Below, piece by piece: positions 10,051 through 38,783 of a stretch of 64,000 nt of DNA. The position numbers and the translations under genes were made by a program. Under the pieces are notes generated by a model, which was given only the letters and a program-made list of their open reading frames with translations, was not told the DNA's origin and ran no database searches. The first letter of the stretch is position 1; each line of letters begins with the position of its first letter. Source of the DNA: Bacteroidetes bacterium GWF2_33_38 (lineage in GTDB: Bacteria > Bacteroidota > Bacteroidia > Bacteroidales > GWF2-33-38). Location: contig MEOF01000018.1 of assembly GCA_001769505.1 (NCBI GenBank), positions 1-64,000 of the forward strand. The letters are read 5' to 3'.

Positions 10051-10887
10051 TTATTCTTTAGTCTTTGATTTCAGTCCTTTTTTCTTTGTTTCAGGTAAAT
10101 AGTTTTGTTTAGTTACAACTTTTTTTCCTGATTTAATTTCAAGTTGTTTTCTTGCATCTCCTGCTATTTTTCCACCAACTTTCGCAGCTTTCTTATTCTG
10201 TTCAAATCCTTTCGGGTTTGTATTTACAACAATTTCTTTTGTAGATGCTTCTCCGAGCATTGAAAAGATTAACTCAAGGTCAGTCATGTGGTCTCTCAAG
10301 TTTTGACTTTTAAGTCCTTTCAAGTGCTTGTGCTGAGAGGGAGTTAGACCAAAAGTTGCTTTGGAGATTTCTGCTGTAAGAATTGAGTATTCAATTTGTT
10401 CTTTTATTCCATGATTATTCCATTCTTCGGTTAGTTCTTCTCGAATGGCAATACTTCGCATACGCTTTTCTATCCAATCATCAGGATAACCCTTTAGCTT
10501 GTATAGTTCACGTGTTCGCTGTGTGGCTAATTCTGGATTTTCAATTTCATCTAACCTGTCAGAACCAACTTGTGCCAACCATTGTTTAAAAGGTTCCGCT
10601 TTGGGTGATGGAATGGATTGTATTATTCTTAAAAGTCCTTTAGTATCTGATGCTTGCACTTTGCGTCTTTTGCCATCAGCAGCCTGCATTTCAACGAGGG
10701 TACAAATTGTACCCCAGTTCATTTTGAGCAACTCATCACGGCGAAGCATTTTTTTTAGATATTGCTTCACATCTGAACTGTCAGTCAATGCTTCTACTAC
10801 GTCTTGAACTGAAAAGTACCACTTATTCTCTTTTTCGTTCCAAATCGACCTTATTTTCTTGCTTTCGAAGAGTTTTATATTGCTCAT
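10051..10887 (-). CDS. Bro-N domain (prophage antirepressor-like / DinD-like) protein
   Basis: 278 residues. The N-terminus has the Bro-N pattern FESKKIRSIWNEKENKWYFS..DVVEALTDS and a later QWLAQVG motif, as in phage antirepressors. The C-terminal half (SILTAEISKATFGLTPSQHK..KGL..NLRDHMTDLELIFSMLGEA) matches the DinD-like arm of this family. The tail is Lys-rich and may bind nucleic acid. Such genes are often carried on mobile elements. It lies between two group II intron relics and directly beside another accessory gene (TIR/SEFIR). Its role here is unknown. Confidence 0.75.
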   Translation of the reverse strand: MSNIKLFESKKIRSIWNEKENKWYFSVQDVVEALTDSSDVKQYLKKMLRRDELLKMNWGTICTLVEMQAADGKRRKVQASDTKGLLRIIQSIPSPKAEPFKQWLAQVGSDRLDEIENPELATQRTRELYKLKGYPDDWIEKRMRSIAIREELTEEWNNHGIKEQIEYSILTAEISKATFGLTPSQHKHLKGLKSQNLRDHMTDLELIFSMLGEASTKEIVVNTNPKGFEQNKKAAKVGGKIAGDARKQLEIKSGKKVVTKQNYLPETKKKGLKSKTKE

Positions 10888-11095: not shown

Positions 11096-12544
11096 TTAAC
11101 GTATTGTTCCAATTTTTTCAATTTCTATAAGATTGTAAATAGGAATTACTCTATCAAATGAACGGGAATACCCAATCCGATTTTGATTTTTGTCTGCTTC
11201 TTTGAAAGCTAAAAGTTTGTCTTGTAACCCTTTTACAGAATTAACACTAAAAAGAACTTTTACTTTTTCAAAGTGTCTTAATGATATTAGTCTAGAGATA
11301 ACTTCAAATTTACCGTTGTCTCTTGTTCTGTATACATAAGTTATGGGAAACCAATAAAGGTTTTCTAAAGAGGCAATGTAATAAATTAGTAAATCGGCAT
11401 TTATAATGTCATCTAAGCTCACATTTTCAGGCAATCGCTTTATTATTAGGTCTGCCATAGGACTGAAGTAGTCCTTTGAATATGTTTGTTTGTAGTATTG
11501 GTCAAATATTTCCACATAATTGTATAGTTCATTAAACCTTTGAACTTCTTTTTTATAATCATGTCTGCCTTGAAAGAAATAACCAGAGTATAATATTTCT
11601 TCAACAAACTTGTATTTTTCACTTTTCAGTCCAATAGCTATTGTGTAAAGAAACATCTCGTGAATGAAAAATCTAAAATTGTCAAATTCACTTGGTGACC
11701 AACTACTCCTACCATCTTGAGGGTCTTTAAGTATTGGTAGCTTTTCAAAGAATCTAATAAATATATCTATATCAAATTCAATTTCACTTTTCAATAGTTT
11801 GTCAAGAAATGCCACATAGTCATTTCTCAATGAAGTGTATGAAACAATATTGTCGTGAATCGCCTTACCAAACACAATTACATCCATTGTCGAAACAACA
11901 TTTGCAGAATACCCTTTTAGGTCATCAAAGAAATTGTCAAGGAACTCTCTAACAATTGAATTAATTCGCCTTGGTGATTTTGAAATTTGGTTGTCAAAAC
12001 TTCTAACAATGCTTGAAGTTTTGTGGGTCATTGGTGTTTCTTCAAAAAGGTAACTAGGTGCTTTCCCTATTTTGGGCTTACTGTATGCCGGTCTTTGATA
12101 AATGTTTCTTAATAAAGACTCATAATTTTCTTCAAATTTATCTTGTTCGGAAAGGTCAATATAAATTCTCCCTTCAAGGTAAGTTGGGACACATGCGTTT
12201 CCATTTTCATTTTTCTCTGAAACAATTGGAATAAATTTTTCTTGTGATACGTCACCGTATATTTTAGGACTTATTATTTGGGTTTCTGTGCCAACTCCAC
12301 CAGCTCTTTGTTCTGCCTTTTCCGAATATTTCTTGTCTAGGATTATTAAAACCTTTTGAATGTCTTTTGATTTGACCATCGTCTCCATAAAGTCGAATTT
12401 GTCTTGACCCTCTTTTAAATTCCATTTGTCTATTACAACATCAACTCCGTCTGAAACCAATCTTTCAGCAAGATTAATAACCCAATCTTCATGAACAGGA
12501 TTTGTCCAACTGTATGATATAAATATTTTAGGTGTTTCTGTCAT
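11096..12544 (-). CDS. TIR/SEFIR-domain protein, candidate anti-phage or stress NADase-type effector
   Basis: 482 residues. The N-terminal ~150 residues form a SEFIR/TIR-type domain: KIFISYSWTNPVHEDWVINL, LVSDGVDVVIDKWNLKEG, then KFDFMETMV, whose Glu sits where TIR enzymes carry the catalytic glutamate, and KVLIILDKKYSEKA. The remaining ~330 residues are largely helical and unrecognised. In bacteria, TIR and SEFIR proteins act as NAD-degrading or signalling effectors in phage defence (family knowledge); that role is inferred here. No obvious partner sensor gene lies next to it, unless the Bro-N protein plays a part. The promoter region is a repeat shared with a gene 44 kb away. Confidence 0.75.
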   Translation of the reverse strand: MTETPKIFISYSWTNPVHEDWVINLAERLVSDGVDVVIDKWNLKEGQDKFDFMETMVKSKDIQKVLIILDKKYSEKAEQRAGGVGTETQIISPKIYGDVSQEKFIPIVSEKNENGNACVPTYLEGRIYIDLSEQDKFEENYESLLRNIYQRPAYSKPKIGKAPSYLFEETPMTHKTSSIVRSFDNQISKSPRRINSIVREFLDNFFDDLKGYSANVVSTMDVIVFGKAIHDNIVSYTSLRNDYVAFLDKLLKSEIEFDIDIFIRFFEKLPILKDPQDGRSSWSPSEFDNFRFFIHEMFLYTIAIGLKSEKYKFVEEILYSGYFFQGRHDYKKEVQRFNELYNYVEIFDQYYKQTYSKDYFSPMADLIIKRLPENVSLDDIINADLLIYYIASLENLYWFPITYVYRTRDNGKFEVISRLISLRHFEKVKVLFSVNSVKGLQDKLLAFKEADKNQNRIGYSRSFDRVIPIYNLIEIEKIGTIR

Positions 12545-12889: not shown

Positions 12890-13708
12890 CTAGTTAAATC
12901 CTCCAAATTTTCTTAAATCTTCTCTAGGGTTAACACACATTACCGAAACTTTTGCCGTATTTGCAATAATTTTTTGTTCGTGTGCTCCAAGCAAATAGTC
13001 ATTAAATCCGATGTCTTTGGTTGTCATAATCAACACTAAATCGGCATTGATTTTCTCGGCAAAATCAATTGTAGCTTGAGGAAAGTCAGAACCTTCGGCT
13101 GTAGAAATATCATAATCAATTCCTTTGCTATCGAGAATTTTTTTAGCAAATAATAAGTTGTTGTTTATTAATCGCTTCAAAGCCTCATCGTTAGTGTCGG
13201 GTCTGATTATTCTAACTTTTAATTTATAATACTTAGCCAAATAGTTAACCCAGTTCAATTTTTCTTTGTTCTCGGTTTTAAAATCTACTGGAAACACAAT
13301 GTTTTCGTATTTTTCGTTTTGAGGTGGGGCTTGAACTACCACAAACGGAACTTTAGAACTTACAATAACTTTAAGAGCCCAACTGCCGGTTAGCTTCTGC
13401 ATACCTCGAATTCCGTGTGTTCCCATCAAAACTAAGTTTGCCCCAATATCAGAAGCTGTTTCAGATATTGTTGTAAAAATAGTTCCTTCTTTTACGATTG
13501 GCTCTGGTCTTCTTCCGTACTTTTTAAATGCCTCATCAGCAACATGATTCAACTTTTTTGAAGCCTCTTCAATCTCCTTACTTTTTTTCACTATGTGTAT
13601 CAAAGCTATTTCGTTATCGGTAATAGCTGCGAATTTATTTGCATGAGCTAAGGCGTACTCTGAAAGGTCTGTAAAATCCCAAGTAACTAAAATTTTATTT
13701 TTTTCCAT
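12890..13708 (-). CDS. Tandem-domain universal stress protein (UspA family)
   Basis: 272 residues made of two Usp domains. The first (residues 1-~148) starts KILVTWDFTDLSEYALAHAN and has the nucleotide-binding loop LVLMGTHGIRGMQKLTGSWALKVI. The second starts NIVFPVDFKTENKEKLNW and ends LVLIMTTKDIG..DYLLGAHEQKII. In UspA proteins the G-2x-G-9x-G(S/T) loop binds ATP; the first domain retains a GTHG-like form, the second is divergent. It is divergent from the adenylate cyclase-HD gene, 75 bp away, and has its own terminator. It is probably a cytoplasmic stress protein. Confidence 0.9.
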   Translation of the reverse strand: MEKNKILVTWDFTDLSEYALAHANKFAAITDNEIALIHIVKKSKEIEEASKKLNHVADEAFKKYGRRPEPIVKEGTIFTTISETASDIGANLVLMGTHGIRGMQKLTGSWALKVIVSSKVPFVVVQAPPQNEKYENIVFPVDFKTENKEKLNWVNYLAKYYKLKVRIIRPDTNDEALKRLINNNLLFAKKILDSKGIDYDISTAEGSDFPQATIDFAEKINADLVLIMTTKDIGFNDYLLGAHEQKIIANTAKVSVMCVNPREDLRKFGGFN

Positions 13709-13783
13709 AAATATTAGTTTAATTTTGTAACATATTTACAACGCAAAATTAAGAATTAATTGCGTAATTTACGTAATCTTTTT

Positions 13784-16700
13784 ATGAGAAGCAACAATAT
13801 GTTTTCTAAATCCATATATTTTTTGATTAAAGGATTTTTTGCTTTTGCGATTACATTATTTGTGTACACGAATGCTTATTGCCAAAATATCGACAATGGG
13901 ATTCCTTTGATTACGAATATTCCACCCAAAATTTATGGATTTGAAAGTCAAAATTATTCGATTGCTCAAGATAAAAACGGAATAATTTATATTGGAAATT
14001 TAAGTGGGGTTATTGAATACGACGGTACATTTTGGAAATTAATAAAAGTAACAGGCATTCCCATTTTAAAAACGAACAACGAAGGGACAATCTTCGTTGG
14101 TGCATATAACGATTTTGGATATTTAGATCACGATTCGCTTAACCAAATTTGCTTTAAATCAATTCGGAAAAATATTAAGATTAAAAATTTTGGAGCGATA
14201 AATAAAATTGAAGCTATAGGGAATAATGTTTTTTTCTGTTCCGAAAATAGTATTTTTAAATATTCGATTTCTGATAAATCGATTGAACTCATAAATTCGA
14301 GTCCTAATTATATAAACATATTTAAAGCAAATAACGACCTTTTGGTTTACAAATACGGTTTTGGTTTATATAAGTATATCGATAATCGATTTAAACTTAT
14401 TCCGAATAGCGAATATTTTAAAAATGAGCCCATTATAGATATTATTTCGTATCGTAATTCCGATTTACTGATAAAAACTCAAAATCAAAAAAAGTTAATA
14501 CGATATAACTACAATTACATTCGAGAATTTGAATCTGACGTTGACGATTTTATTGCAGCTAACGAATTTGTAAAAGGAGTGCAGCTTTCAAACGGACAAA
14601 TTGCTCTTGCAACAAAAAGATGTGGCATTGCCATAATCGACCAGCAAGGAAAACTCATAAATATCATTAATACTCAAAACGGGCTTTACAACAACAATGT
14701 AAACGATTTGTTTATTGATAAAGCTAACAATCTATGGGTTGCATTAAGCAATGGTTTAAGCATAATAGAAACACCATCAAAAATTTCATTTTTTAACGAA
14801 ACAAGCGGTATTCAAGGGGGTATATATTCAATGACAAAAGTCAACGATATTCTATATGTAGCCACATCGCAAGGTGTGTTTAAATACGAAGGAAATGCTC
14901 AAAATTTATCATATAATTTATGCCAACCTCTTAGAGTTTTTAGTCCTATATCTAATATAAGTTGTCCATGTTATTCGTTTTATAAAATAAACGGAAGGTT
15001 ATATGTTACCAGCGATAATGGGGTGTACGAAATTACTGACAATCGAGCGGTGCTTGTTTTCGAAGGGCAATTAAGATCAATTCATCAACTCAAAAAAGAT
15101 TCAAACATTGCATTGTTTGGCATTAAAGATGGGTTATACATTATCACGGTTGATGAAAATGGAGTTTTTAGGAGTTCTACCAAAATCGACAATTTTAAAG
15201 AATACGCTAGAACTTTTGCCGAAGATGACGCTGGAAATATCTGGTTTGGAAGCGATTATGCAGGAATATACAAAATGAGATTAAACGAAAACGATATTTC
15301 AAAACCAGAAATAATAAAGTACAATCAACAACAGGGCTTACCCGACAATTTTGGTTGGATTGATGTTTACTCTTCTTCAAATGGCGTTTTGTTTTCTACC
15401 TACAAAGGCATTTACAGATTCAACTACAAAACCGAACGATTTTACATCGATACGTTAATCGGTTTCGATTTTTCGACTGCCGACAGATGGGTTTACCCTA
15501 TTGTGGAAGATAATAATAAGAATCTCTGGTTAAGTTCGGGTGAACATAATAAGTTTATGAAGCACACAGGAGTCGCTTATTTCAATAAAGCAAAAAAGAA
15601 ATATAATCTCGACCTTATACAATTTAGCAAACTAAGCAATTATACGATTGAGGCTATTTATCTTGATAAAGACTCTGTCGTTTGGCTTGGTGGCTTCGAC
15701 GGACTAATTCGATTTGATAAAAAAATTAATAACGAAACAACTCACGATTTCATTACGCTTATTCGAAAGATTATTATTCATAAAGATTCGCTAATCAGCA
15801 CTACGATAAACAAATCATTAGCCGATGTTTTATCTTATAATATCGACTCAGTAATTGTTGAAATTCCGTACAAATACAATTCCATCCGATTTGAATATAG
15901 TTCGCCAGAATATAGTGCCGATTCAAAAATTGGGTATGAATACATACTCGAGGGTTACGATGAAAATTATTCGGTTCTTAAAAATTCAAATGTAAAAGAA
16001 TATACTAATCTAACTGAAGGCGATTATACATTTAAAGTGAGGGCAAGAGATATTTATGGCAATATCTCAAAAGTCGCAATGTATAAATTTACAATACAAC
16101 CTCCACTTTATCGAACTTGGACAGCAATTATTATATACATTATTTTAATTGTCTTTATTATTTTGGTTTTCAATAACTGGAGAAGTTACTTTTTTGAAAA
16201 AGAAAAAAATAAACTCGATAAAATTATTACCGAAAAAACCGAAGATTTAGTCAAGCAAAAAGAAAGAGCCGAACAGCTTGTTAGCAATATTTTGCCACGA
16301 CAAACAGTCGAAGAGTTAAAATCGATGGGGCGTGCAAGTCGTAAAAAATACAAAATGGTAACCGTATTATTTTCTGATATTCAAGAGTTTACTCGTATTG
16401 CCGACACCATGAACCCCGATCAATTATTAGACGAATTAGACAAATATTTTTTACACTTCGATTCGGTTGTCGAAAAACTAAACATTGAAAAAATTAAGAC
16501 AATTGGCGATGCCTATATGTGTGCTGGAGGAATCCCTCAAAAAAATCGAACAAATCCTATTGATGTTGTGTTTTCGGCATTACAAATGCGACACTACTTA
16601 AACGATTTAAAAGAAAAAGAAGAAGATGTTTGGGATGTTAGAATTGGAATTCATACAGGTAGCGTAATTGCCGGAATTGTTGGAAGCAAAAAGTACACGT

Positions 16701-17533
16701 ACGATATTTGGGGCGACACAGTTAACATTGCAAGTCGAATGGAATCGCTCGGAAAACCTGGCGAAGTAAACATTTCAGAAACAACCTACGATTTAGTGAA
16801 AGAGTTCTTCGATTGTGAATTCAGAGGAAAAGTTCCTGTTAAATACAAAGGAGAAATGAAAATGTACTTCGTTAAAGGACTTAAACCTCAATTCTCAGAA
16901 AATAACGATGGAATAACGCCCAATAAAGATTTTATGATTAGGCTTCAACTCATTCGTTTCGACGACCTTGACGAACTAATTATGACTAAGTTGGAAAAAG
17001 GACTTTTGAAAACATTATACTATCACGATTTAAAACATACCATTGATGTTTGCACTCAAGTTGAAATTATCGGACGAATGGAACATGTAAGCGAAGAAGA
17101 AATGCTTTTATTGAAAACCGCTGCATTATTTCACGATACCGGATTTATTATTGGCTATGAAGACCATGAATTTTTAGGAATTAAAATGGCTCGAGATATT
17201 CTTCCCCAATTTTCATATACTGAAGACCAAATTAAAGCGATTTGTGATTTGATATATGTAACAAAACTGCCACCACAGCCACAAAATCTATTGGAGCAAA
17301 TTATTTGTGACGCCGATTTAGATTATTTAGGAAGAACAGATTTTATCCCAGTATCTCAAAAACTTTTCAGAGAGTTATTTGAGCGAAATAAAATTAAAAC
17401 TCTTGATGAGTGGAATAAAATGCAAATTAAATTTATATCTGAGCATCAGTACTTTACTGAGTCGGCTAGAAAAATGAGAAACGTCAATAAGCAAGAACAA
17501 TTAGATAAACTTCGAAATTTAACCAAAAATTAA
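13784..17533 (+). CDS. Periplasmic propeller sensor / class III adenylate cyclase / HD-domain fusion
   Basis: About 1249 residues from the ATG at 13784; an in-frame TTG at 13760 is less likely because a signal peptide (FAFAITLFVYTNAYCQ) follows the ATGs. Two-component-type propeller repeats (NLWVALSNGLSIIE, NIWFGSDYAGIYKM) fill the first ~650 residues, then a Y_Y_Y-like domain (YTFKVRARDIYGN). One membrane span follows near 780-800 (WTAIIIYIILIVFIILVF) with a short coiled segment. The cyclase domain (~857-1035) has metal-binding FSDIQEFT and GDAYMCAGG, adenine-selecting Lys and Asp in KIKTIGDAYM and YDIWGDTVNIASRME, so it should make cAMP. An HD domain (~1050-1240: YYHDLKHT, ALFHDTGF, DADLDYLG) follows. 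The fused HD domain might hydrolyse a nucleotide. Confidence 0.85.
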   Translation: MRSNNMFSKSIYFLIKGFFAFAITLFVYTNAYCQNIDNGIPLITNIPPKIYGFESQNYSIAQDKNGIIYIGNLSGVIEYDGTFWKLIKVTGIPILKTNNEGTIFVGAYNDFGYLDHDSLNQICFKSIRKNIKIKNFGAINKIEAIGNNVFFCSENSIFKYSISDKSIELINSSPNYINIFKANNDLLVYKYGFGLYKYIDNRFKLIPNSEYFKNEPIIDIISYRNSDLLIKTQNQKKLIRYNYNYIREFESDVDDFIAANEFVKGVQLSNGQIALATKRCGIAIIDQQGKLINIINTQNGLYNNNVNDLFIDKANNLWVALSNGLSIIETPSKISFFNETSGIQGGIYSMTKVNDILYVATSQGVFKYEGNAQNLSYNLCQPLRVFSPISNISCPCYSFYKINGRLYVTSDNGVYEITDNRAVLVFEGQLRSIHQLKKDSNIALFGIKDGLYIITVDENGVFRSSTKIDNFKEYARTFAEDDAGNIWFGSDYAGIYKMRLNENDISKPEIIKYNQQQGLPDNFGWIDVYSSSNGVLFSTYKGIYRFNYKTERFYIDTLIGFDFSTADRWVYPIVEDNNKNLWLSSGEHNKFMKHTGVAYFNKAKKKYNLDLIQFSKLSNYTIEAIYLDKDSVVWLGGFDGLIRFDKKINNETTHDFITLIRKIIIHKDSLISTTINKSLADVLSYNIDSVIVEIPYKYNSIRFEYSSPEYSADSKIGYEYILEGYDENYSVLKNSNVKEYTNLTEGDYTFKVRARDIYGNISKVAMYKFTIQPPLYRTWTAIIIYIILIVFIILVFNNWRSYFFEKEKNKLDKIITEKTEDLVKQKERAEQLVSNILPRQTVEELKSMGRASRKKYKMVTVLFSDIQEFTRIADTMNPDQLLDELDKYFLHFDSVVEKLNIEKIKTIGDAYMCAGGIPQKNRTNPIDVVFSALQMRHYLNDLKEKEEDVWDVRIGIHTGSVIAGIVGSKKYTYDIWGDTVNIASRMESLGKPGEVNISETTYDLVKEFFDCEFRGKVPVKYKGEMKMYFVKGLKPQFSENNDGITPNKDFMIRLQLIRFDDLDELIMTKLEKGLLKTLYYHDLKHTIDVCTQVEIIGRMEHVSEEEMLLLKTAALFHDTGFIIGYEDHEFLGIKMARDILPQFSYTEDQIKAICDLIYVTKLPPQPQNLLEQIICDADLDYLGRTDFIPVSQKLFRELFERNKIKTLDEWNKMQIKFISEHQYFTESARKMRNVNKQEQLDKLRNLTKN

Positions 17534-22138: not shown

Positions 22139-22831
22139 TTATCCGTGTCTGCTTATGCTTTTTAGTTTTTCGAGGTCTAATATTTTAATATTTTTACCTT
22201 CGAGTTCAATAATATTTTCGTTTTTGAATTCGGCTAAAATTTTCACTGTGCTTTCGTTAGAAATGCAAGCAAAATCGGCAATATCTTTTCGAGTTATGTA
22301 TTTATACAAATCTTCGTTATTAAATTTTTCTGATGATAAATATAAAATTACATCGGCAATTCGCCCGTTCATTTGTTTGTAACTTACAGATTTTAATCGT
22401 TCTATAATAATATTTTCATCTTTGCTATATCCTTTAATTATTTCAGATGCAAATGCCGAATTGCTTTCGATTAAATTTCGAATTCCTTCTTTTTCAATTA
22501 AACAAATTTGAGCATCTTTTATGGCAACGGCTGAATAATTGTAAATGTTTTCGCCAAAAACCGAAGCAAATCCTATAAATTCTCCTGCTTTTAAAATTTT
22601 AAAATTCGTGAATTTATTGTTTGTGTTTTCAATATATAACTTAACCAATCCACTTGCAACATACAAAACATAAGATGCATAAGCTCCTTGTTTACAAAGA
22701 TTTTCGCCTTTGCGATACGCTATTTGTGTTTTTTTCTCATTGATAAATTCAAGTTCTGCTAAAACGAGCTTGTTAAAGCAGTTCGAACCAATTTTACATT
22801 CAATACAATTATGTATATCGCTCATTATCAT
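22139..22831 (-). CDS. Crp/Fnr family transcriptional regulator
   Basis: 230 residues from the first ATG; a second ATG two codons later (22825) is also possible. A cyclic-nucleotide-binding-type beta roll occupies residues ~25-145 (KGENLCKQGAYASYVLYVASGLVKLYI, LKAGEFIGFASVFG). The helix-turn-helix near the C-terminus reads YITRKDIADFACISNESTVKILAEFK. The N-terminal CIECKIGSNCF has three Cys that could hold an Fe-S cluster as in FNR, but this is not proven. The gene is divergent from the ORP-like operon at 23022, so it is a candidate redox regulator of that operon. Confidence 0.85.
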   Translation of the reverse strand: MIMSDIHNCIECKIGSNCFNKLVLAELEFINEKKTQIAYRKGENLCKQGAYASYVLYVASGLVKLYIENTNNKFTNFKILKAGEFIGFASVFGENIYNYSAVAIKDAQICLIEKEGIRNLIESNSAFASEIIKGYSKDENIIIERLKSVSYKQMNGRIADVILYLSSEKFNNEDLYKYITRKDIADFACISNESTVKILAEFKNENIIELEGKNIKILDLEKLKSISRHG

Positions 22832-36224: not shown

Positions 36225-38783
36225 TTAATCTTCGCTTGTTTCAGTTTCTTCTTTTCCTTCTTCCCAAATGATGTTGTATTTTCTATCAAAAATATTTGTT
36301 GTGTCTTTTTTGTTTTTGATTATAGACGAGTCTTTTTTAAACCATCCGAATTCTTCATTTAAAATTTTCTTGAGATTATTTTTTTCCTCTTTTATGCTTT
36401 CTTTGATATGTTCTTTTACTTTTCGCGAATCGTAAACTACGTTATAATTGTCAGGTGTTCCTGAAATTCTAAGGTATATACTCGTTTTTCCAAGTCCGTC
36501 GTCTTCAATCACTCCGAACTCTTCGTTTTCTTTTTTCGCCTTTTTGGCTTTTTTTGCCAATATGTCTGACATTAAAACTTTAACGCTGTAATCAAATTCA
36601 TTGTCGAAATTATGAGTTCCCGAAGCTAAGATATTAAATGCCGATGAAAAAATATCCATTGCCGGAATCGTAATTACTCGATCTTTAATGAAAATATCGT
36701 TTTCCAATTTTGAAAACTTGATTCTCTTTAAATCGTCAAGTTCAATATATTTTGAAAGTTGTGTCATTGGTTCAAAATCAAGTAATTCGCCATCAACAAT
36801 TGTGATTGAGCTTTCGGCCATTATCGATTTTTCAATAACTTCAAGATTTGTATTCCATTCGGCTGAAATATTTAGATTTCCTGAAATATCGCCCTTTAGA
36901 TTTTGTGCTAAAATAAAATTTTGCGAAAAATTATCGAATGTTTGAAACAAATTCGTAATGTCTATATTTTTCAATTCGGCTTTGCTTTTGAGTAAATAAT
37001 TTTCGGTTTCGAGTTTGGTAAACAAAGCTTCGCCCTTTACGCTTCCTTTCATTGAATTAAAAGATAGATTGTTGGCTATAATTTTATTGCTGTTGTAATG
37101 TAAATTTCCTTTGACACTCGTGGCAACAAATTTTTCGTATCCTATCTTGTTTGATTTTAAATATGTGTCGATAATAACATTGGGTAGTAGTTCTTGCGAA
37201 GATTCGCTACTTTCGTTGCTTGCAAAAGCTTTTATAAAATAATCGATGTCGATATTTTCGGCTGTTACGTTTGCATTTATGGCTAAAATTTCGTTTTCAA
37301 ACAAAATGTAAGGAAAAATATTTTTGACCCAGCCTTTGAGCAGGAAATCACTTTTGTCGAGCGTAACATTCATGCTATCGATGAAAATATCGGCATTTTC
37401 AAACGAGAATTTTCCGTTTACATTCGAATAGTTCAATCCGCTTTCGACTAATTTCAAATTTGCATTGTAAAGTTTGACAAAACCTTGTGTTTGTGCATAT
37501 TTAAAGTCAGATTCTGTAAGTTCGTTAATTTTCTTTTGAAAGCCTTGATATTTGAATTCTGCTTGTATTTTTCCGTTGAAAACCTCGATTGTATCCGAAT
37601 TTATAAGTTGTTTTATATCATTTAGGTCGGCTTCGGTTTTTAAATTGATGATGATTCGTGGGTTAATAAAATTTTCGAGGGTATATTCGCCCGAAAAACT
37701 TGAAGCATTATATTGTGCTGATATGTTTTTTATTTTCAACGAGGCTGTTTCGGAACTATTGCTCGAGCCATTTGTATAAACTCCTTGAAGGTTAACATTT
37801 TTCAAGTCGATTCCTTCACTAATGTAACGAACCTCTGCTTTTTCGATACCAAAACTTGCTTTAATATGTGGCGAATTTCGCTTATCAACTTTCCCGCTGA
37901 TGTTACAATCGATATAAAATAAACCTTCGCTTTTAAAATCGTCAATTTCACTTATCAGCGAGCGTGGTAAAAGCGATAAAAACGACTTAATGTTTATATC
38001 TTGTCCTTTTATGTCGAGGTTTAGTTCGTCTCCAAAATTGCCATTAATCGAAAATTTTATCCCAGAAAGGTTTATATTTCCTTTATGAATTACGGTATTT
38101 ATGCTATCAACTCCTAATGTTATTTCGGCTGATAGTTTTCGGTTTTCGAGATATGATATTTTTTCGATTTCAAGAAAATTATTTATTGTTTGAACATCAA
38201 GTGTTAAATCAAAAACATCTTGCGATAAATTACCAGAAAGTTCGGCGGCTTTAATAAAAGTGGAATAATTTAATTCTTTTATTCGGTTGATATGGTGTAG
38301 TTTTACTTCATTTAATTCCACCTTTTTAAGGTCAAGGTTGCTTTCTCCAGAATTGGACTTTTTTTCCCAAAACAAATAGTTTTCGTTGCCCGATTTATCA
38401 ATTAATATGTTGATTTTTCCGTTTTCTAGATTGACTTTTTGAATGTTGTATTGCTTGTTGAAAATATCCCGAATGTTAAATTCGAGAAATAGTTTTTCGG
38501 CAAAACAAAGTGTATCAACATTTATGTCAAAGTCTTTTTTATTGATTCCAGTTGATGATTTTATGCAAACATTTTTAAATTCAAGCGAGGCATTTGGGAA
38601 CTTACGTAATACCGAAAAATTAATATCATCAACAGAAATTTCGGTAAGTAAATTTTGATTTAATTTTGAAACGACTAGGTTTTTAACTTCGTCTTCGTAA
38701 AAATATGCAAGCACAACTCCCGATACGACAATTAGAAGTATAATCGACAACAAAAATATCAATACGTATTTTATATATTTCAC
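36225..38783 (-). CDS. AsmA-like large envelope protein
   Basis: 852 residues. One N-terminal membrane span (YVLIFLLSIILLIVVSGVVLAYF) is followed by DEVKNLVVSKLNQNL..ISVDDINFSVLRKFPNASLEFKNV, the typical AsmA/TamB opening. The rest is a long series of beta strands ending in a charged tail with DDGLGKTSIYLRISGTPDNYNV. Such proteins bridge the inner membrane and the periplasm and are thought to help lipid transport to the outer membrane. It is the first gene of a run with a histidine kinase and a metal exporter, gaps of 11 and 9 bp. Confidence 0.8.
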   Translation of the reverse strand: MKYIKYVLIFLLSIILLIVVSGVVLAYFYEDEVKNLVVSKLNQNLLTEISVDDINFSVLRKFPNASLEFKNVCIKSSTGINKKDFDINVDTLCFAEKLFLEFNIRDIFNKQYNIQKVNLENGKINILIDKSGNENYLFWEKKSNSGESNLDLKKVELNEVKLHHINRIKELNYSTFIKAAELSGNLSQDVFDLTLDVQTINNFLEIEKISYLENRKLSAEITLGVDSINTVIHKGNINLSGIKFSINGNFGDELNLDIKGQDINIKSFLSLLPRSLISEIDDFKSEGLFYIDCNISGKVDKRNSPHIKASFGIEKAEVRYISEGIDLKNVNLQGVYTNGSSNSSETASLKIKNISAQYNASSFSGEYTLENFINPRIIINLKTEADLNDIKQLINSDTIEVFNGKIQAEFKYQGFQKKINELTESDFKYAQTQGFVKLYNANLKLVESGLNYSNVNGKFSFENADIFIDSMNVTLDKSDFLLKGWVKNIFPYILFENEILAINANVTAENIDIDYFIKAFASNESSESSQELLPNVIIDTYLKSNKIGYEKFVATSVKGNLHYNSNKIIANNLSFNSMKGSVKGEALFTKLETENYLLKSKAELKNIDITNLFQTFDNFSQNFILAQNLKGDISGNLNISAEWNTNLEVIEKSIMAESSITIVDGELLDFEPMTQLSKYIELDDLKRIKFSKLENDIFIKDRVITIPAMDIFSSAFNILASGTHNFDNEFDYSVKVLMSDILAKKAKKAKKENEEFGVIEDDGLGKTSIYLRISGTPDNYNVVYDSRKVKEHIKESIKEEKNNLKKILNEEFGWFKKDSSIIKNKKDTTNIFDRKYNIIWEEGKEETETSED

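Follow-up and report, generated by a model that had tools for sequence, protein, structure and literature searches.

A Bacteroidales protein joining a sensor propeller, an adenylate cyclase and an HD domain: a predicted one-chain cAMP synthase and phosphodiesterase

Bacterial GGDEF-EAL proteins carry a writer and an eraser of cyclic di-GMP in one chain, and in some copies one of the two halves is degenerate. For cyclic AMP (cAMP) in Bacteroidota, both the way in which the signal is switched off and its role are, to our knowledge, largely open. A single-chain arrangement for cAMP is found in the plant protein CAPE (COMBINED AC with PDE; AC, adenylate cyclase; PDE, phosphodiesterase) of Marchantia polymorpha and further streptophytes whose sperm are motile, in which a class III AC and a class I PDE of the HD superfamily share one membrane protein; the consulted part of PMC8115329 reports both AC and PDE activities for MpCAPE. 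Here, we analyzed a 64,000-nucleotide stretch of Bacteroidetes bacterium GWF2_33_38 (contig MEOF01000018.1, positions 1 to 64,000; the window). At 13784–17533 on the forward strand, it encodes a protein for which the same combination of enzymes is predicted, preceded by a sensor propeller. Our best reading is that this protein is a bacterial counterpart of CAPE, with its activities predicted from the cyclase and HD domains. No bacterial AC-HD fusion was described in the titles or abstract openings of the open-access literature that we searched. Because 746 domain architectures are given for cyclase domains in Pfam in the consulted part of PMC4886424, the fusion may well already be recorded among database architectures, uncommented.

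The gene is a single complete open reading frame (ORF). Its ATG at 13784 gives a product of 1249 aa, from which residues are numbered here, and an alternative in-frame TTG at 13760 gives 1257 aa. Pfam assigned Reg_prop (47.2 bits, summed), Y_Y_Y (40.5 bits), Guanylate_cyc (187.6 bits), and HD (30.4 bits), every score lying above the curated cut-off. A hydropathy scan of the 1249-aa product found two hydrophobic segments, at residues 11–29 and 778–796. The first (13814–13870) may be an anchor or a signal peptide that is cleaved. It is followed by a Reg_prop-type beta-propeller sensor, presumably periplasmic, with approximate limits placed at 13900–15900, and by the Y_Y_Y domain (15911–16096), which would be the last periplasmic domain. 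The second segment (16115–16171) is a predicted transmembrane helix, from which a helical linker (16172–16342; helices 2–25 and 28–37 in the structure model) leads to the cyclase and, by its position, may act as a coiled coil or transducing element. The chain then continues with the class III AC domain (16343–16879), identified by Pfam, key residues, and PDB relatives, and ends with the HD domain (16961–17527), identified by Pfam and alignments and predicted to have a class I PDE-like fold. The initial annotation had likened the periplasmic part to that of the hybrid two-component systems of Bacteroidota, whose architecture we take to include Reg_prop and Y_Y_Y, and the order Reg_prop, Y_Y_Y, transmembrane helix agrees with this. 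No histidine kinase or receiver was found behind the propeller. Seven relatives (L013–L019) align over 1232–1243 chain positions at 47–56% identity. These full-chain relatives, the cyclase profile match (E 1.3e-56), and a confident HD model exclude a chance occurrence.

The Guanylate_cyc match spans profile positions 4–183 of 183, and alignment with PDB relatives located D865, D909, K905, D974, N981, and R985. By analogy with mammalian AC, we take D865 and D909 to be the metal-binding Asp residues, K905 and D974 to contact the adenine, and N981 and R985 to serve the transition state. The adenylate-type assignment made initially from these three residue pairs is supported. The best PDB matches were the membrane adenylate cyclases 8, 9, and 5, followed by bacterial and receptor cyclases. 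The expected product of the domain would be cAMP. With a threshold of E 0.001, the genome (3.93 Mb, 70 contigs) has five cyclases of class III, two of which are cyclase-HD fusions, namely the window protein and a 478-aa protein on contig C27.

The fusion recurs in relatives. A scan of genome contigs gave 12 loci, each with Bacteroidetes, Bacteroidia, or Bacteroidales in its title. Eight of them (L012–L019) encode a propeller-cyclase-HD chain of 1208–1287 aa and L020 encodes two shorter fusions; L021 and L022 have a cyclase without HD, and in L023 the gene ends early, before the HD domain. A cyclase-HD profile, run against a sample of 395 Bacteroidia genomes, matched across the two domains at a single place in at least 73 (the window's included), seven of which carry a second copy. 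This count is a lower bound, with four best candidates scored per genome. G668, whose match contains one stop (locus L246), and G696, whose match lacks the first 73 profile positions, are included; G019, with two stops and adjacent genes, and G416, matched at positions 151–441 only, are not. Nine fusion places lay outside the set that was read (G564, G539, G696, G506, G424, G513, G727:C16, G535:C31, and G509:C31). Complete fused ORFs, 61 of the 82 read, ranged from 459 to 1866 aa. Their N-termini vary and include propellers, TPR (L202), kinase-AAA-GAF (L071), short membrane or receiver-like segments recognized by eye without a Pfam match (L195 and L260), and shorter membrane or soluble forms such as L249. 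The cyclase-HD linker measures 9–35 residues between profile ends (median 31). In a tree of 212 HD rows, the cyclase-fused label needs five changes, at least three of which are forced by well-supported branches, and the fusion has therefore been gained or lost more than once. The survey for the same fusion that the initial annotation had proposed thus found it kept well beyond the window.

The HD motif residues of the window protein are H1081, H1085, H1117-D1118, T1160, and D1176, corresponding to HD positions 21, 25, 57, 58, 100, and 116 in the numbering of the HD fragment used below (protein number = n + 1060). In alignments of 13 and then 74 HD sequences, H21, H25, H57, D58, G60, T100, D116, E137, and W150 were invariant. 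When 212 HD sequences were sorted by architecture, the six motif residues were retained in all 83 fused copies, and D118 in 81 of them. Duplicate locus identifiers of one gene were dropped from these counts, and L246, with its internal stop, stands outside the 83. The metal ligands, which had been singled out for checking in an alignment, are intact.

The cyclase half is less uniform. Its adenylate-type hexad is complete in 74 of the 83 fused copies (window included), unreadable in L013 (unread bases at the cyclase Arg), and altered in eight. In the C27 paralog (L121) and its orthologs L009 and L011, the first metal Asp is replaced by Asn or Gln and the adenine Lys by Asn; L252 has Glu for a metal Asp and Thr for the adenine Asp; and in L222, L223, L231, and L234 the transition-state Arg is Ala or His. 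These eight proteins are short forms (459–534 aa), and each keeps the six HD motif residues; where one half of the fusion decays, that half is the cyclase. In GGDEF-EAL proteins, one half often turns regulatory. The persistence of the HD residues in copies with a decayed cyclase suggests that the HD domain has an output of its own. The paralog from the window genome (L121; G000:C27:86454-87773) is soluble-looking, with both a metal Asp and the adenine Lys changed to Asn and the HD residues intact.

We modeled the window HD domain with AlphaFold2 (pLDDT 96.7, pTM 0.92). VIA-align, applied to Foldseek's best 1000, superposed the model on PDE10A with Z 18.0 at 2.3 Å over 184 of 189 residues and on PDE7A with Z 17.6. 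In a profile–profile comparison with HHalign, the HD family matched PDE4D/5A/10A/9A with probability 90 and, counted as a single pairwise comparison, E 1.7e-6, pairing YHN-x2-H with YHD-x2-H, HD with HD, the ATD Thr with T100 (ATD/VTK), and ADL with DADL. The match to PDE4D alone was weaker (probability 41.5), and in global HHalign modes the pairings past the HD motif were meaningless. As a control, the YedJ-like HD protein of the same genome reached probability 0.7 against the PDE set, compared with 19.4 for the window HD. Thr100 is replaced by His in 2pq7 and YedJ in the PDB profile alignment.

The same HD family also occurs outside the fusion, with profile matches in 131 of 395 Bacteroidota genomes. 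Loci retrieved for part of the listed matches held 129 HD genes, which comprise 70 HD-PycTM genes, 49 standing alone, four HD-YitT-DUF2179 genes, two cyclase fusions, and four others. A class III cyclase was located within 3 kb of 13 of 36 unfused non-PycTM HDs (0.19 expected) and within 12 kb of 19 of 36 (0.68 expected), whereas the corresponding counts for HD-PycTM were 0 of 21 (0.13 expected) and 3 of 21 (0.45 expected); these numbers refer to the 40 genomes in which unfused HDs scored best, take random placement as the expectation, and leave weaker, unlisted second matches uncounted. In four genomes with a sole class III cyclase (G365, G263, G275, and G101), the HD gene is 1.0–1.4 kb away from it. 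Fold coverage, the shared Thr, and the association with cyclases together argue for a PDE-like function.

We consider it fairly probable that the window protein is a bifunctional, ligand-controlled cAMP synthase and phosphodiesterase in one chain, with the phosphodiesterase step a presumed one. A ligand would bind the periplasmic propeller/Y_Y_Y part, and the signal would pass via the transmembrane helix and the helical linker to the cyclase. There, a homodimeric class III adenylate cyclase would make cAMP from ATP, and the C-terminal HD domain, folded like a class I PDE and acting as a phosphodiesterase that depends on metal, would hydrolyze cAMP to AMP. The ligand would shift the balance between the two, and one chain would both write and erase the signal locally. 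We infer both activities, the identity of the substrate, dimerization, and the direction of ligand control from domains, residues, predicted fold, conservation, and genetic association. The initial suggestion that the HD domain could hydrolyze cAMP has thus gained a PDE-like predicted fold and an association with cyclases, and the removal step itself stays at the level of a prediction.

Several results weigh against this reading. Foldseek placed 2pq7 and YpgQ (with ADP) first and PDE5A next. VIA-align gave 2pq7 a Z of 17.1 over 158 residues, which ties with the PDEs, as Z differences below 1 are counted as ties. A profile search of the PDB returned 2pq7, YedJ, and Lin1889 at E 4e-10 to 5e-8, compared with 0.003–0.035 for class I PDEs among the matches listed. 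Pfam PDEase_I (PF00233) gave no match over the cut-off in the window protein and none even at E 5 in its HD domain. In favor of the reading, PDEase_I at E ≤ 5 did match 35 of 74 HD members weakly (best 1.4e-4), ranking third in frequency among the families found in them; against it, one of the eight other HD proteins of the window genome, a dNTPase-like one, also gave a weak match (E 0.0022). Because PDEase_I membership fails, the family is not filed as class I PDE; by its sequence relationships, it lies between class I PDEs and YedJ/2pq7-type hydrolases. In class I PDEs, the purine is contacted by an invariant Gln and a Phe clamp. Q154 and F157, present in 78 and 80 of the 83 fused copies, are set opposite these residues by an alignment of low confidence; the purine-contact Gln is also mentioned in the consulted part of PMC8115329. 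The signature H(X)3H(X)25-35D/E, given for class I phosphodiesterases in the consulted part of PMC4222275, occurs in 83 of 83 fused copies and in 211 of 212 HD rows, but as judged from sequence it is not discriminating, being found also in non-PDE HDs such as YedJ and 2pq7. The polar residue H68 near the site is kept across the family (69 of 70 PycTM members and 50 of 51 solo members) and is relaxed in most cyclase fusions, where 61 of the 83 have Asn at position 68, 20 have His (the window protein among them), and 2 have Pro; because the window protein itself keeps His, this leaves the odds of the proposed function unchanged. Finally, the 40 genomes of the proximity analysis were picked by score and are related, so its significance is overstated.

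The same kinship underlies an alternative in which the HD domain is a YpgQ/YedJ-type nucleotide (pyro)phosphohydrolase that would remove pyrophosphate, dNTPs, or an alarmone, for example pulling the cyclase forward or linking it to nucleotide stress. The nearest PDB sequences (2pq7, YedJ, and Lin1889) and the best Foldseek matches (2pq7 and YpgQ with ADP) are of this kind, and HHalign relates the HD family more strongly to the genome's own YedJ-like HD (E 7.4e-9) than to the PDEs (1.7e-6). We nevertheless regard this function as unlikely: Thr100 is aligned with the Thr of the PDEs, a position occupied by His in 2pq7 and YedJ, the superposition covers 184 of 189 residues on a PDE compared with 158 for 2pq7, and a pure pyrophosphatase would leave unexplained why the same HD is fused to PycTM, a cyclic-nucleotide effector domain. 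Two other HD activities were considered and rejected as unsupported by the family models. For a (p)ppGpp hydrolase, HD_4 is absent from the window HD in Pfam, whereas an RSH-like protein of this genome reaches 1.4e-45; for an HD-GYP c-di-GMP phosphodiesterase, HD_5 is absent from the window protein and weak in 6 of 74 members. A similarity to BTB domains, seen only as rows from a single-sequence PDB search with the HD (best E 0.011), was judged to be chance.

A further alternative is that the HD domain binds cAMP or another nucleotide without hydrolysis and feeds back on the cyclase, its residues being kept for metal-dependent binding. Regulatory, inactive HD domains exist in general, and both the short linker that joins the HD to the output end of the cyclase (median 31 residues) and the replacement of H68 in most fusions fit such a role. 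However, pure binding domains would usually relax their metal ligands, while all six motif residues are present in 83 of 83 copies, and the HD is kept even where the cyclase site is altered and perhaps no cyclase activity is left to regulate. We therefore hold a binding-only HD domain to be distinctly improbable. A defense circuit, in which a Pycsar-like cyclase would be paired with an HD domain clearing leaked cyclic nucleotide, is very improbable, as the partial match of PADLOC PycC models to the cyclase (E 4.8e-17), the presence of the same HD on PycTM in 70 of the 129 HD genes read, and a bSEFIR gene with TIR_2 similarity one gene away (E 6.3e-107) are set against adenine-type Lys and Asp in the cyclase, a long sensor with a transmembrane helix, a TIR-like neighbor that scores as bSEFIR rather than PycTIR and went unmatched in those related loci that were searched, and PycTM ORFs in 0 of 81 fusion-holding loci, many of which span only 1–6 kb around the gene.

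Beyond the synthase–phosphodiesterase reading of the window protein, the HD family as a whole may be a general eraser of cyclic mononucleotides in Bacteroidota, a bacterial cousin of class I PDEs in which position 154 selects the base (Gln where the HD is fused to or lies beside adenylate cyclases, mostly Asn in PycTM). This is a tentative idea, and we lean against it. If it is true, the same HD removes cAMP in signaling and could clear cyclic pyrimidines in PycTM proteins, as a brake on a membrane-breaking effector. Q154 is found in 78 of 83 cyclase fusions, 4 of 4 HD-YitT proteins, and 3 of 70 HD-PycTM proteins, 51 of which have Asn. Among 35 of the 36 unfused non-PycTM loci used for proximity (G124:C96 left out), a cyclase lies within 12 kb in 18 of 22 with Gln154 and in 1 of 13 without it. 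The four cyclase fusions with Asn154 are the four that have lost the transition-state Arg; they group in the tree and maybe represent one event. For plant fusions, Asn or Thr at the purine Gln is given in the consulted part of the CAPE paper (PMC8115329). The Gln/Asn154 split nearly all follows the tree, which offers 1–4 independent contrasts, without support for a link, and descent alone may account for it. With no signal in these 1–4 independent pairs, we rejected Gln154 as a proven specificity switch.

HD-PycTM proteins (L077, L088, L091, and 67 other loci) are ~390–470 aa long, common in sampled Bacteroidota, and mostly away from class III cyclases. Because they mostly do not lie beside such cyclases, HD-PycTM genes look unlike classic two-gene Pycsar operons; 3 of 70 adjoin a weakly scoring cyclase ORF on the opposite strand (L134, L142, and L156). 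Each of the HD-YitT-DUF2179 fusions (L057 and L061, assigned by Pfam; L059 and L067, assigned with our own profile) lies less than 2 kb from a class III cyclase, and a membrane output might here be controlled by the same HD family.

Divergent from the fusion gene is a gene for a two-domain universal stress protein (Usp; 12890–13708, reverse strand; Pfam Usp 81.2 bits). A Usp ortholog directly adjoins the fusion in nine fused loci (L012–L020) and the truncated L023, and stands beside the gene in twelve further loci of a more distant set; Usp genes near the fusion were found on either side. At E 1e-90 or better, 54 of the 73 fusion genomes have the ortholog, 26 within 12 kb of the fusion, 25 on another contig, and 3 on the same contig 36–83 kb off; it is missing at this threshold in 19, of which 16 have fusion frames of 611–641 aa. 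Eight of 60 chosen non-fusion genomes also have it and two more fall just short of the threshold, a comparison that is biased by a Usp profile built from fusion neighbors. The recurrent neighborhood strengthens the case for Usp as a partner of the fusion. An obligatory partnership was rejected, given its absence at threshold in 19 of 73 fusion genomes and its distance in others. A G-x2-G-x8-GS motif in the N-terminal half of the Usp is conserved in 14 of 14 aligned sequences.

The initial annotation had named the Usp as a possible cAMP binder, and we can only guess that it might serve as a reader or sink of cAMP. In the consulted part of PMC11107214, the mycobacterial USP (Rv1636/MSMEG_3811) is described as a cAMP sponge, and cAMP-binding USPs of this kind as limited to three actinobacterial genera. 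The Usp next to the fusion resembles these as a possible cAMP reader or sponge whose gene adjoins a cyclase, and differs in having two domains, its cAMP binding being putative.

The Crp/Fnr protein at 22139, proposed as the cAMP receptor, was not supported in this role. In cAMP-type CRPs, we take the phosphate-binding Arg to stand in an ...RSA... or R-S/T-A cassette, and the corresponding stretch in the cNMP domain of the protein at 22139 reads NYSA. The genome has seven other cNMP_binding proteins, and no canonical R-S/T-A cassette was seen on reading the stretches of all eight. A search of the flanks of related loci did not find the Crp gene, a weak test with flanks of ~6 kb at most.

Among the remaining neighbors, ilvE lies downstream of the fusion gene and is matched in two related loci searched (L012 and L014), and the SEFIR and TonB-receptor genes of the window were matched in none of these loci. 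The bSEFIR-type defense gene (11096–12544, reverse strand; PADLOC E 6.3e-107, SEFIR/TIR_2 similarity in Pfam) is one gene away from the fusion, and beyond it is a BRO-N domain gene (10051–10887, reverse strand). The two, next to the Usp gene, are possibly a small defense or mobile insert. No Pycsar effector gene was found beside the cyclase, the flanking genes scanned being Usp, bSEFIR, and ilvE. Elsewhere in the window, an 852-aa ORF at 36225–38783 (reverse strand) had no Pfam match at E 0.001.

One protein may thus set the cAMP level in both directions, in an arrangement that recurs in many related bacteria. A widespread receptor that combines a writer with a probable eraser would be an enzyme open to direct testing and a bacterial parallel to plant CAPE. 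It would also point to bacterial kin of the eukaryotic class I PDEs and would functionally label an HD family that is also found on PycTM effectors. CAPE differs from the window protein in being eukaryotic, in having its PDE N-terminal and its AC C-terminal, and in a PDE that is classed as class I, while PDEase_I misses the window HD. Compared with the class I PDEs themselves (PDE4, 5, 7, 9, and 10), the window HD has a similar predicted fold and pairs at YHN-x2-H, HD, Thr, and ADL, but is bacterial, shorter (189 residues compared with ~260 spanned in PDE10A), and without a PDEase_I match. With the YedJ/YpgQ/2pq7 hydrolases, which are closest by PDB sequence (2pq7/YedJ) or by Foldseek (2pq7/YpgQ), it has the H-D-x2-H, HD, and DAD motifs in common, and is set apart from them by Thr100 and by its cyclase and PycTM partners. 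Many Bacteroidota PycTM proteins of the Pycsar effector type bear the same HD family at the N-terminus, whereas the window protein is without PycTM and its cyclase residues are of the adenine type. The hybrid two-component systems of Bacteroidota have a similar Reg_prop/Y_Y_Y periplasmic part and a transmembrane segment before the output, with a kinase and regulator where the window protein has cyclase and HD. The likeness to GGDEF-EAL proteins lies in the predicted pairing of writer and eraser in a single chain and in the occurrence of degenerate halves; the messenger differs, and the catalytic domains are unrelated.

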